From an uncultured Verrucomicrobiota bacterium (GTDB taxonomy: Bacteria; Verrucomicrobiota; Verrucomicrobiia; Verrucomicrobiales; DEV007), in the NCBI GenBank assembly GCA_902589825.1, contig CACIUL010000006.1, forward strand, positions 1 to 64,000: a stretch of DNA of 64,000 nt. Reading direction: 5' to 3'. The notes beneath the pieces are model-generated. The model worked only from the letters and a program-made list of their open reading frames with translations. It made no database searches and had not been told where the DNA came from. Positions within the stretch are counted from its first letter, which is position 1. The number at the start of each line of letters is the position of its first letter. This document shows positions 13,781 through 49,165 of this stretch, in pieces. Both the position numbers and the translations under genes were made by a program.

Positions 13781-15319
13781 TTACTTGGCCGCAGTCTTGC
13801 CGGCCTTGCCCTTCTTTGCAAAGGCGTAGAGATTGGTCTGACTGGCAATATAAAGCACGTCATTGGCAACGATCGGACTTGCATAAACCGGGGCGGAAAA
13901 CTCGATAAGGCCGACCTCCTCAAGCTTTCTCCCATGCTTAAGTATAACAACCTCGCCGTCCTCATTGCCTATAAAAACCTTGCCGTCAGCAACCAGGGTG
14001 GATCCCCAGATGTGGCTCTTGGTGTCAAACATCCACTGCTTCTCGCCGGTCTTGAAATCAACACAATGGACCCGACCGCGATAATCCGCAGCATACACAA
14101 GCCCATCAGCAACCGAGGCCGTCGATATTCCCCTCTCTATTTCAGTGTAATCCCAGGCCAGCTTGCCAGTAACCGCATCAACGCAGGTCATGCGTCCGAC
14201 ACCTTCACCATGCTCGGGATCCTGCCCGATGAGGCAAATGACCTTTCCCTGATGATAAACCGGTGAAGATATATACTCGCTCGGCCCCTCAAAGGTCGCA
14301 TACTTAATTTTCTTTCCATCCTTATCCACCCTGTATTCAGGAAGATTGCCATCCACGCGCCAGTTCTCAGGCAGCACCAGAAACCCTTCGTCATCCTCCT
14401 TTGCCTTCGGACTGAAGCTGTAAAGGATACCGTCACCGGCACCAAAGAAAATCGCTTCCTTCCCCCCCACCTTCGCAACCATCGGGCTCGACCAGTTGCA
14501 ATGCATCACTCGCTCACCGATCTTTGATGCTTCTTCTCCCACAAGCTCGCCCGTGGCAGGGTCAAGCAGGATCAGGCAAGGAGCCTGCGGGGCGGGAATA
14601 TTCAGGTGCGACCAGTCAACTCCGTTGGATGTCGTAACAGCAAGTTTGCCGTCAACCATGGTTGGGGAGGAACTTGCAATATTATGGGGAAACACACCCA
14701 GTTCCTCACGCATATCATATACCCAGATCACGTCACCGTCCTTCTCACCGGGCTCGACCACCTTGCCGCCGGTTGCCATGAACTTGGCCTCATCCTTGAA
14801 CGGCCCGTCATTTCCATTACTCATGCCGGCCATGTCCAGACACACAACCTTGCACCGATTGGAAATGAAATAAGCCCTGCCCTTGTGAATCAGGGGCGAG
14901 GAACAAACACCCAGGTATTCCCAATCGGAAACCTTACCCGCACCAAGTTTTGGAATCACGAGCTGCCACAGGAAACTGCCGTCTTTCTCGTCAAAGCACA
15001 TCACGATGCCACGATCACCTTGGTGATTGGGATCCCTCGGCGACTCATTATTCGTGCCAATGAGAACTTTCCCCTCAGCAACAGTCGGCGTCCCGTAGCT
15101 CTGGGACCCGATCTTTGCCACCCATTTGACGTTCTTCGTCGTAGACAGGTCGATCTCCTCTGAGCCTTTCTTCCTTTTTCCAGGGTCCATATTGGAAGGA
15201 ATGGACTTGGACACCGAGGCCATGTTGTTATGGGGGGTCCCCCCCCACTCAGGCCAATCAGCACCATTGGCGACAATGGCAATTGAGGATAGAGTAAAAA
15301 ATGCGGCTATCTTTTTCAT
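13781..15319 (-). CDS. Secreted PQQ-binding-like beta-propeller protein
   Basis: Signal peptide; repeated GKLAWDYTEIERG, GEKQWMFDTKSHIWGSTLVADGKVFIGNEDGEV blades; DWPEWGGTPHNNM N-terminus. Confidence 0.85.
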   Translation of the reverse strand: MKKIAAFFTLSSIAIVANGADWPEWGGTPHNNMASVSKSIPSNMDPGKRKKGSEEIDLSTTKNVKWVAKIGSQSYGTPTVAEGKVLIGTNNESPRDPNHQGDRGIVMCFDEKDGSFLWQLVIPKLGAGKVSDWEYLGVCSSPLIHKGRAYFISNRCKVVCLDMAGMSNGNDGPFKDEAKFMATGGKVVEPGEKDGDVIWVYDMREELGVFPHNIASSSPTMVDGKLAVTTSNGVDWSHLNIPAPQAPCLILLDPATGELVGEEASKIGERVMHCNWSSPMVAKVGGKEAIFFGAGDGILYSFSPKAKEDDEGFLVLPENWRVDGNLPEYRVDKDGKKIKYATFEGPSEYISSPVYHQGKVICLIGQDPEHGEGVGRMTCVDAVTGKLAWDYTEIERGISTASVADGLVYAADYRGRVHCVDFKTGEKQWMFDTKSHIWGSTLVADGKVFIGNEDGEVVILKHGRKLEEVGLIEFSAPVYASPIVANDVLYIASQTNLYAFAKKGKAGKTAAK

Positions 15320-44664: not shown

Positions 44665-47600
44665 CTAAAATGGTGGCGTTGTGCTTCGCAAATAGGCAAA
44701 GAGATCCTGCAATTCACGCTCCTGTAACCCGTCGAGAAGTCCCTCTGGCATCAGTGATACCGGCGAATAGGTAGTGGACTTGATTTGTTGCTTAGGAATT
44801 GAACGGGCCGCTCCAGACAATTCCCTTAAAAAGACGGCATTATCATTCTCCTCTGTCCGAAAGCCCGAATACACATCACCTTTCCGGGTCATTATCACCA
44901 CATGTTCAAACCCCTCACGAATCTCAACGCTTGGAGAAACAATACTCATCAAGAGCGATTGCTCATCACCCCTCTGGTAACTTGTAAGATCAGGTCCAAT
45001 CACACCGCCCTTACCAAACATCAGGTGACATGACCCACACCTCTGGACAAAAACCCTCTCGCCTCTCTTGGGGTTTCCGGGAGCTTCTGTAATCAGTTTC
45101 TGGAGCCGGTTGATTTCATCTTTATTGGTGCCTGCTACAGCCTTGACCGATATACCCTTAATTAACCGGTTAATTTCATCATCCCTGTAAAGTTTCATTT
45201 TCTCAGCCATGACAGGAGTTATTGCACTGCGCGGAACATCCCCTGCCGCCACAATCCGCAGGAATCCAAGGGCTGCCTTACGGTTGCCGGACAAATATTC
45301 AATCGCTGCGTCCCGTAATGAAGGTGAACCACTCTTGACGCATTGGATTAAATGCGCCGCCACACTCTCATCCGCAGGATAGCCACGCAGCGCCCCGATT
45401 GCCGCAGCCTTTACCTTGTCAGTAAATTTTCCGTCCAATACCTTCAGCAGCGCAGGCTTGGCCTGTGGCGGCAGCACCTCTCCAAGAGTTGAGATTAATT
45501 CAATACGTTCAGCCTCCTGCAACTTTGAATTTCCTAGTGAACTCAAAGCTGATTGAGCAGCACCATCAATCCGCATGCGCAGCATCAATGCAATTGAGAG
45601 CAACTCCGGGGTCTTTTTCAGTTCCACCTCCAGAGCATTCGGCAATACACCCAATTGAACCCCCTTTACAGCCTCTGCAAAACCTTTCATCAAAAGTTGT
45701 TTTGCTTTCAGGTGGGGCGCCATTTGCAAAAGACGCGCACAATACAGGAACCCTTGTTGAGTACCCTCGGCAGCAAACCGCCGCATCAAACGCTCCACTA
45801 GGTATCCATTCACAATCCCGTGCCGCCAGAAATCCGGTTCAGAAAACAGCTTCAACACATCATCAGGTGATGAGATCGCATGTTGCTCGAGGATCCACCA
45901 GACCATTAAAGGCAAATGAGGATCATCCTTAAAGTTATCCCTCCTCGAAATTTCCCCGGCTATACCAATGGCAATCTTTTTATCAGCACGGCGCGCCGCT
46001 GCAGCGAGACAACTCAACACCTCTGCTGAATTTATCTCACGCGCAAAAGCAACAAGCTGCCCTGTTGTCGACGAGTCGCGTGCAATATCAACAAATCTCT
46101 GTATGGCATAACCCCTTGCACCAGGGCTGGCAAATTCACATTCCAGCAGGTCAATACCTACAATCATTGCGAGCTCAACATCAACAGCATTACGAAGTTT
46201 CCAACCCTCCGCCTTAAGCCTGGCAACTTCATCGACAGCCATCTCAAGAATTGATCTGTCCTTCTTCATCCTGTGCCTAAATTCCTGCAGAGCCATTCGA
46301 CGGAGCAAGCGTGAACCCGAACCAAGCACGGCTATCAATTCACGATCACCGATTGCAGTGACATCCACCGGCTTGGCGGCGCTTTTTTGCCTCGATTGAA
46401 CCCTGTAAATACGACCCTTGTCATGATCAATATCACCCTCATGGTTCTTGTAGTGATTGACCTGGCGGTCCTGCCAATCGGCGATGAACAATGAGCCGTC
46501 CGGGCCAGGCGTAATCATGACGGGGCGAAACCACGCATTATCAGCCTGCACAACGCGCTCGATATCACGGGTCTGAAAAGTTGACCCATCCGGGAAGATC
46601 TCACTCAAGACCACATTATTATGCAATACGTCCACTCCCCATAACTTTCCCCGGTAACGGGCCGGAAGCCCCTCCTCATCATAAATGATGAATTGATGGG
46701 TAAACCGTTCAACCGCGATGTTTTTCATTGCCGGAAAATAACCATAGGCATGGGCATTGGTAAGCGCCCCGTGCTTGCCCCAGCTTTTTCGGTAATAGGC
46801 CCCATACAGATAGTGAAACCCGCGGGTGTCACCTCCATTGTGCCCCGAGTAAACCCTTCCACATGAGTCAACCTCAACGCCAAAGGCATTGCCTCCACCC
46901 TCAGCATAAATCTCGTAAATTCTTTTCTCAGGGTGATAACGCCATATGTGCTGCCCCATCGATTTAACAGCCTGATCTGGGGCATCTATTCCCGGTCTTA
47001 TGATTGCCGCACTGACTGTGCTGCCTTGAGCGCCATACAACCAGCCGTCCGGTGCCATTAACAGGCTATTGGCTATAGAATGGGTATCCTCAATGCCAAA
47101 CCCGCTAAGGTGCACTTCCGGAGCCCCATCCGGCTCATCATTCCCGTCCTGATCCTTGTAAAAAAGCAGATAGGGCGGGTTCGTCACCCAGATTCCCCCA
47201 TCGCCATGGGCAATGCTTGTGGCAAGGTTCAGGCCATCAACAAAAACCTTGTGAAGATCATACATGCCATCACCATCGACGTCCTCGTGAAGACTGATCC
47301 TGTCCCTTCCCCGAAACTTCGAGCCTGGAGCATGGGGCGGTGGCGGCGGCATCCGGTCATATCCAACTCGCCAGACCTTATCTCGGCTCAGTTCAACCAG
47401 CCCGGCAGGGTCAGGATATTGCATATATTGCACAACCCATAAACGCCCTTTTTTGTCAAAACTCATGTGCAGCGGTTGCCGGATTAATGGATCACTGAGC
47501 ACCTTGTCAATGCGAAGATCCACGGGAACCTTCATGCCGGGAGCCTCATCGAGATGAGCGGACCGCTTCCCCTCATTGACAGCAAGCACCCAGCCAATTG

Positions 47601-47805
47601 CATTGACCAGCATCTTGTTAAACTCATCCCTCTTGAAATCCTCGATATGCCCAAGCGAAGTATAGAAACTTCTGCCCCCCCCACCGGGTTTTATACGACC
47701 AAGCCACCGGTTGCTTCTCTTCAACTTTTTCAGCACGTCCCTCCAACAGGACCCTCGCCCCCTTTGCAAGGGGAAGGACTTTATACAAAGAGCCGCCCGT
47801 TGCAA
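44665..47805 (-). CDS. PVC-type haem-binding CxxCH / membrane-bound dehydrogenase protein with HEAT repeats; N-terminus carries the out-of-frame end of a ThuA domain
   Basis: DPLIRQPLHMSFDKKGRLWVVQYMQYPDPAG; APDGWLYGAQGSTV; VFVQRCGSCHLMFGKGGVIGPDLT. N-terminal GGGGRSFYTSLGHIEDFKRDEFNKMLVNAIGWVL is ThuA-like. Confidence 0.85.
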   Translation of the reverse strand: MQRAALCIKSFPLQRGRGSCWRDVLKKLKRSNRWLGRIKPGGGGRSFYTSLGHIEDFKRDEFNKMLVNAIGWVLAVNEGKRSAHLDEAPGMKVPVDLRIDKVLSDPLIRQPLHMSFDKKGRLWVVQYMQYPDPAGLVELSRDKVWRVGYDRMPPPPPHAPGSKFRGRDRISLHEDVDGDGMYDLHKVFVDGLNLATSIAHGDGGIWVTNPPYLLFYKDQDGNDEPDGAPEVHLSGFGIEDTHSIANSLLMAPDGWLYGAQGSTVSAAIIRPGIDAPDQAVKSMGQHIWRYHPEKRIYEIYAEGGGNAFGVEVDSCGRVYSGHNGGDTRGFHYLYGAYYRKSWGKHGALTNAHAYGYFPAMKNIAVERFTHQFIIYDEEGLPARYRGKLWGVDVLHNNVVLSEIFPDGSTFQTRDIERVVQADNAWFRPVMITPGPDGSLFIADWQDRQVNHYKNHEGDIDHDKGRIYRVQSRQKSAAKPVDVTAIGDRELIAVLGSGSRLLRRMALQEFRHRMKKDRSILEMAVDEVARLKAEGWKLRNAVDVELAMIVGIDLLECEFASPGARGYAIQRFVDIARDSSTTGQLVAFAREINSAEVLSCLAAAARRADKKIAIGIAGEISRRDNFKDDPHLPLMVWWILEQHAISSPDDVLKLFSEPDFWRHGIVNGYLVERLMRRFAAEGTQQGFLYCARLLQMAPHLKAKQLLMKGFAEAVKGVQLGVLPNALEVELKKTPELLSIALMLRMRIDGAAQSALSSLGNSKLQEAERIELISTLGEVLPPQAKPALLKVLDGKFTDKVKAAAIGALRGYPADESVAAHLIQCVKSGSPSLRDAAIEYLSGNRKAALGFLRIVAAGDVPRSAITPVMAEKMKLYRDDEINRLIKGISVKAVAGTNKDEINRLQKLITEAPGNPKRGERVFVQRCGSCHLMFGKGGVIGPDLTSYQRGDEQSLLMSIVSPSVEIREGFEHVVIMTRKGDVYSGFRTEENDNAVFLRELSGAARSIPKQQIKSTTYSPVSLMPEGLLDGLQERELQDLFAYLRSTTPPF

Positions 47806-49165
47806 ATTCCCCCTTCCCTAGCCCCTTAAGAACAGGATGATCAGCAGCAACCGGCCTGGCAAATGTTGCCAGCTTGTTGCCGTGATGATTCTGGTAATTC
47901 CCACCAAACACATCACCATCAAAACTCTCCCATGTAAGGTGTCCTTGCGGCGGTTCCTTACCCCTGAGGGAGAATGCGTGACTGGAGGTACGGATGCCAA
48001 TCACAGGCTTGCCTGACTTGATAAACCTCTCAAGGGCCGCCATCTGCTTTGCAGGTGGCGACCTACGCCTGACACTTAAAAACAAGGCATCCGTATCCTC
48101 CAGGGCAGGTTCAAGGCCGGCAAACTCATTCTCGCCATCCTCAGCAACTATAAAGTCAAAGCGATAATCCCGGATGAGTTGACCGGCAGCAAAGGCAGCA
48201 AGTGTTTGACGAGTTTGATACTCCCGTTCACCAATCATGAAGAGGAGCTTCGGCCGAGAATCCTTCTTGAAGACAAATGGCTGTCCACCAAGAATCTGGT
48301 TGCTTGTAATCGTCGCACATACATGCTCCTCAATATGAGCCACGACAAGGTCCGTGCCGGCAAAGTGACTGACCCTTGGATGCCTGGCAGGATTATACAT
48401 GGCATCCGTCAAATCACGAACCAAGACAACATTCTTGCCGTTTTTTGCCAATTGCCTTAACCCGAAAGGACGACCGAGAACACACATGTTGGTGTGCACG
48501 CCAACCAGCATAATGTTCTTTATCCCCTTCTCTTCCAGGATATTCCAGCATTCTTCCCCGCTGTCAGAAATAAAATCCTTATCAGGATCAATGCCGATCA
48601 CTGCAATTTGCCGGACCCAGGGAGATCCGGGATTTCTCCCCATTTCCTTGAGCTTGGCCTCCCACCGGGCATGAACATCAGGGTCATCATCCTCACCTCC
48701 ATCACTATGGTCAATGGGATAGCCGGCCTGTCGCTCCTCATCGTCAATCCAGTGCATCCAGGAATTAATTCCAGGGGGAAGGTTCTTGGCTCTAGGCACC
48801 TTCTTGGCCTTCAACCTTGCAGGATGCTCACGGTAGAACTCCATGCACGAGGATGGCGAGTGTATCACCAATCCGCCTTCTGACCGTACCCTCTGCAACA
48901 AAAGGTCAATGCGTGGAGCAAGCTCTTTAACACGCATAACCGCATTGTGGCAATGGTGGGAATCCCACATGTCACAAACAATCACTGCCGTTTGCTCCCC
49001 TCGCCATTGCTCATTCTTTAGCCGGAAGCCGTCGTTTGCATGCTCCGGTCCCTTCCTCTCGCGCAATTCCACCTGTAAGGGGGCAGCCAAGCAGGCGGAC
49101 AACATTAAACCGGTTATAATCAAGTAAGCCTTCATTGCATTGACACTAAGCGTTGGGCCCCACAC
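47624..49165 (-). CDS. Isochorismatase-like + ThuA-like fusion, C-terminus truncated by frameshift
   Basis: TAVIVCDMWDSHHC; VGVHTNMCVLGRPFGLRQLAKNGKNVVLVRDLTDAM; ThuA-like VAWSYKTRWGG then out-of-frame QKFLYFAWAYRGFQEG*. Likely real start at ATG 49135. Confidence 0.82.
   Translation of the reverse strand: MWGPTLSVNAMKAYLIITGLMLSACLAAPLQVELRERKGPEHANDGFRLKNEQWRGEQTAVIVCDMWDSHHCHNAVMRVKELAPRIDLLLQRVRSEGGLVIHSPSSCMEFYREHPARLKAKKVPRAKNLPPGINSWMHWIDDEERQAGYPIDHSDGGEDDDPDVHARWEAKLKEMGRNPGSPWVRQIAVIGIDPDKDFISDSGEECWNILEEKGIKNIMLVGVHTNMCVLGRPFGLRQLAKNGKNVVLVRDLTDAMYNPARHPRVSHFAGTDLVVAHIEEHVCATITSNQILGGQPFVFKKDSRPKLLFMIGEREYQTRQTLAAFAAGQLIRDYRFDFIVAEDGENEFAGLEPALEDTDALFLSVRRRSPPAKQMAALERFIKSGKPVIGIRTSSHAFSLRGKEPPQGHLTWESFDGDVFGGNYQNHHGNKLATFARPVAADHPVLKGLGKGEFATGGSLYKVLPLAKGARVLLEGRAEKVEEKQPVAWSYKTRWGGQKFLYFAWAYRGFQEG
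47675..47682. other. C8/G8 homopolymer at apparent frameshift
   Basis: tctgCCCCCCCCacc; removing one base fuses the two ORFs (49165-44665) in frame. Confidence 0.85.

Follow-up and report, generated by a model that had tools for sequence, protein, structure and literature searches.

The gene that appears split in the window, the 64,000-nucleotide stretch of contig CACIUL010000006.1 analysed here, is very probably intact in the cell, and its split a consensus error of the metagenome assembly in which a run of seven Gs was recorded as eight. The most economical account is that long G/C homopolymers were systematically over-called throughout this assembly, a 3.2-Mb metagenome-assembled genome that is 81% complete, is spread over 142 contigs and has Verrucomicrobiales as its named relatives, and that about 14 genes were hit, the window gene among them. 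The gene most likely encodes an uninterrupted protein of ~1,500 amino acids combining isochorismatase-like, ThuA and PVC haem-dehydrogenase modules.

The frame changes at a run that occupies positions 47675–47682 (C8 on the forward strand, G8 on the coding strand) and that reads CCCGGT-G8-CAGAAG when the minus strand of 47500–47900 is inspected. The upstream ORF (47624–49165, minus strand) encodes an N-terminal export signal, MKAYLIITGLMLSAC..., predicted from sequence only, followed by the isochorismatase-like domain and most of ThuA. It terminates as ...TRWGGQKFLYFAWAYRGFQEG*, and its last 48 nt, located 3′ of the G8 run, lie outside the true frame. The downstream ORF (44665–47805, minus strand) reads ...GGGGRSFYTSLGHIEDF and carries the end of ThuA, a PVC-type dehydrogenase domain (TIGR02604/DUF7133), a HEAT-like region and a C-terminal CxxCH haem-binding domain (TIGR02603), its segment 47805–47683 being likewise outside the true frame. 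The upstream ORF leaves ThuA right after TRWGG, and the downstream ORF carries on as RSFYTSLGH. The sequence-only reading had placed a frame switch between two overlapping ORFs exactly at this tract, and sequence, Pfam matches and codon usage all bear this out; codon-usage scoring found the one-surplus-base frame change independently. Its proposal that one G fewer yields a continuous frame also holds, the fused frame amounting to 1,499 amino acids and being similar in length to the open frames of relatives.

The same reading's domain assignments are upheld by Pfam and NCBIfam profiles. The ThuA match is divided between the two ORFs, with profile positions 5–184 in the upstream ORF (47657–48238) and 177–209, including the RSFYTSLGH motif, in the downstream ORF (47587–47682), so that the frame change cuts ThuA beside a conserved motif. 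The best stretch of the isochorismatase-like (cysteine hydrolase) domain lies at 48395–48559 (Pfam). The downstream ORF exceeds both NCBIfam cut-offs of the PVC-type haem-binding CxxCH proteins, with 234.3 bits against 122.2 for TIGR02604 (best stretch 46393–47322) and 114.9 bits against 68.15 for TIGR02603 (44683–45078), all on the minus strand. It differs from that family in that the Verrucomicrobiales relatives carry isochorismatase-like and ThuA domains N-terminal to it in the same frame. Translated without a frame change, as in these relatives, the real gene would thus specify one exported protein of ~1,500 amino acids with isochorismatase-like, ThuA, PVC haem-dehydrogenase, HEAT and CxxCH haem-binding regions.

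Orthologues in close relatives, which the earlier reading had proposed as a comparison, are consistently uninterrupted: the frame stays open through the site in all 49 distinct homologous loci (53 minus duplicates) from Verrucomicrobiales and Planctomycetes, and GG-x-x-FYTSLGH is well conserved in the close homologues. On complete contigs of the nearest relatives, a single open frame of about 1,507–1,521 codons is present in congeners G001 and G002 as well as in the related genomes G018 and G032, and the frame of congener G003 is open up to the contig end. At the site itself, G002 reads TGG-GGG-GGC, an in-frame G7 that is one base shorter than the G8 run of the window, while the run is interrupted in G003 (TGG-GGA-GGC) and in G001 (TGG-GGC-GGC). 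G002 is therefore the only one of the three congeners with an uninterrupted run, and the run is absent in more distant homologues. Neither the tract nor the split is conserved among the three congeners, and the comparison shows the split to be private to this assembly and equivalent to a G7 run with one G too many.

A census of homopolymers places this single surplus base in a genome-wide pattern. G/C runs of at least eight bases in the assembly were examined by scoring, from codon usage, the coding frames that flank each run, and the same scoring was applied to shorter G/C runs, to A/T runs and to samples from congeners G001 and G002. Shift calls rest on codon usage combined with reading of the proteins, with a direct orthologue check for gyrB, aroA and the window gene only. 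Raw in-frame to shifted calls at G/C runs were 190:2 for five bases, 37:1 for six, 10:0 (plus 22:1 in a separate sample) for seven, 28:6 for eight, 2:6 for nine and 0:4 for ten. Reading of the proteins showed the flagged cases at 5–7 bases, and two of those at eight, to be neighbouring genes; the automatic calls L105, L119, L160, L188, L274 and L297 were accordingly dropped as gene junctions, as were those at the 5–6-base runs of L131, L139 and L170, of which L139 probably involves opposed genes. No genuine frame break was left at the sampled coding G/C runs of 5–7 bases, with 259 in frame and none of the examined 7-base runs genuinely shifted, whereas genuine breaks affect roughly 4 of the 32 G8 runs that could be classified, 6 of the 8 G9 runs and all 4 G10 runs (P=1e-11 for at least eight versus 5–7, calculated on raw counts). 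All 14 likely real shifts thus fall at G/C runs of at least eight. Thirteen of them are a surplus of one base, a bias to be read with the caveat that under-calls would show up among shorter runs, which were less densely sampled.

The congeners behave differently. In G001 and G002, 27 of 28 classifiable sampled runs of at least eight bases are in frame, and runs of at least nine are shifted in 10 of 12 cases in this assembly against 0 of 11 in these two genomes (P=7e-5). The reading frame of a LamG-like protein in G002 is broken at a G8 run (L207:2001–2008, G002:C522), either by an error or by a real indel. A/T runs of eight bases in the present assembly include 15–16 in frame and no real shift, and those of nine bases, on small numbers, 4 that are in frame and a single probable shift. 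This sole probable A/T case, an A9 run (L295:1501–1509, G000:C24:36678–36686), may break the frame of a sulfatase gene close to its end.

Housekeeping genes are among those broken. In gyrB the split comes at a G9 run (L115:1501–1509, G000:C9:48299–48307), the GyrB profile being matched in two frames over positions 1–135 and 133–639, and aroA is split at another (L103:1501–1509, G000:C5:79815–79823), with AroA profile positions 1–358 and 358–412 falling on either side. Both genes are whole in the congeners in which they were found, where the long run is missing. A second gyrB-like gene of this genome, carried by relatives too, is a remoter homologue that stays below the cut-off at 394 bits. Simultaneous loss of gyrB and aroA would hardly be tolerable for a cell. 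Other probable breaks at G/C runs of 8–10 bases occur in L100, L123, L124, L134 (two runs), L140, L141, L142, L146, L147 and L151; among the genes hit there are a C25 peptidase, whose Pfam domain is cut, a sulfatase, a Planctomycete-type cytochrome protein and a Tricorn-like protein. The functional spread of these genes does not resemble that of contingency loci.

Several features are those expected of a consensus error: the break lies exactly at a long homopolymer in a gene whose homologues are intact, and elsewhere in the assembly the fault grows with run length and is independent of gene function. Since it recurs at long G runs even in DNA gyrase, an error of sequencing or assembly is almost certain and a biological switch is not indicated; we infer that the fault originated there and not in the cell. 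A survey of prokaryotic genomes likewise expects singleton, homology-validated frameshifts to be mainly sequencing errors (PMC3711429). The present case shares with the draft-assembly homopolymer errors described there a one-base break at a long homopolymer, private to one assembly, with intact homologues elsewhere and essential genes also affected, but differs in being concentrated on G/C, with A/T runs of 8–9 bases largely spared. This sparing is unexpected for a base-independent homopolymer error and not fully explained by one. It also counts against error that 28 of 32 G8 runs are in frame, so that runs of this length are not always hit, as is illustrated by the second C8/G8 run of the window (15239–15246), in frame inside ORF 13781–15319 (minus strand). 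Literature searches on poly-G frameshifts in metagenome-assembled genomes and on overcalls in pyrosequenced metagenomes returned nothing useful.

The sequence-only reading had listed four options without choosing among them, and the genome-wide pattern strongly supports the first, homopolymer error, at the expense of phase variation and slippage. A real, recent frameshift, namely the gain of one base by a slippage-prone G7 run in the sampled population, with destruction of the long product, is conceivable, G runs being mutable and the split private to this genome, but is improbable and much less likely than homopolymer error, as about 13 other genes would have undergone a like event at a like site, including gyrB and aroA. 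The downstream 3 kb also remain open in one frame with no further stop, frame break or other disabling change that would mark a pseudogene. Comparison with the nearest congener, G003, gives a dN of 0.132 for the part upstream of the tract and of 0.124 for the downstream part (dS about 1.5–1.7, near saturation), which reveals no relaxed constraint in the latter, although near-equal values would suit both an error and a very recent event. A mismatch-repair-deficient mutator lineage was considered and is unsupported, because mutS and mutL are intact, each within a single open frame. Slipped-strand phase variation, in which the run would toggle the long product on and off, is very unlikely. G8–G10 runs are typical of contingency loci, G-run phase variation has been put forward for another verrucomicrobial bacterium, Akkermansia muciniphila (PMC3048395), and some of the other shifted genes encode surface or secreted proteins. 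The coding-region G8 run with its frame change does recall the poly-G contingency loci of Campylobacter, Neisseria and Helicobacter; here, however, other bases interrupt the run in two of the three congeners, more distant homologues lack it, no positionally conserved, length-varying repeat was found among the three congeners, and housekeeping genes are affected as well. Switching loci should moreover go both ways, yet 13 of the 14 shifts share one direction, and almost all of the sampled long runs of the congeners remain in frame.

Programmed or rescue slippage by RNA polymerase or the ribosome, with the fused protein and a short form as its two products, would account for the broken gyrB and aroA were the extra bases real, and homopolymer-frameshifted genes are known to be rescued in other bacteria (reviewed in PMC5009743). 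Programmed frameshifting is, however, expected to show conserved slip sites (criteria in PMC3711429), and no such site with overlapping frames was found, as all homologues read through in one frame; the run is out of frame in no relative, and the sampled long G runs of the congeners are, with one exception, in frame. Such slippage at the window gene is accordingly still harder to credit. Its broader form, in which at least 14 genes, including gyrB and aroA, would carry real G8–G10 expansions and have their frames restored by polymerase or ribosome slippage on poly-G, is likewise a very long shot, proposed by analogy. Poly-A slippage rescue in insect endosymbionts similarly involves essential genes frameshifted at homopolymers; here the runs are of G, the genome is neither reduced nor AT-rich (window GC 51%), and the congeners lack the phenomenon. 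Least probable of all, to a degree that is nearly negligible, are two genuine separate genes. Isochorismatase-ThuA proteins of Planctomycetes are mostly stand-alone (about 540–640 amino acids; L038–L063), but all congeners have the fused gene, the downstream piece would lack a signal peptide for its haem-binding domain, judging by its sequence, and the break falls within ThuA, before FYTSLGH, leaving both products incomplete. On the position of the break, the two-gene reading was dropped.

Attribution of the split to a consensus error removes a tempting candidate for phase variation or slippage and serves as a warning that frameshifts at G/C runs of at least eight bases in this assembly are suspect. 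Counting in-frame and shifted runs by length, against congeners and essential genes, could tell such artefacts and contingency loci apart in other metagenome-assembled genomes. Were the extra bases true in the reads, essential genes split at poly-G would instead represent a notable case of decoding rescue.

The comparison of homologues also bears on the architecture of the protein. In Verrucomicrobiales, the isochorismatase-like and ThuA domains are fused to the PVC haem dehydrogenase in proteins of about 1,510 amino acids (L032, L033, L035–L037 and L046). The break in the window gene sits inside ThuA, away from the boundary between the isochorismatase-ThuA part and the dehydrogenase, and the fusion itself is lineage-specific.
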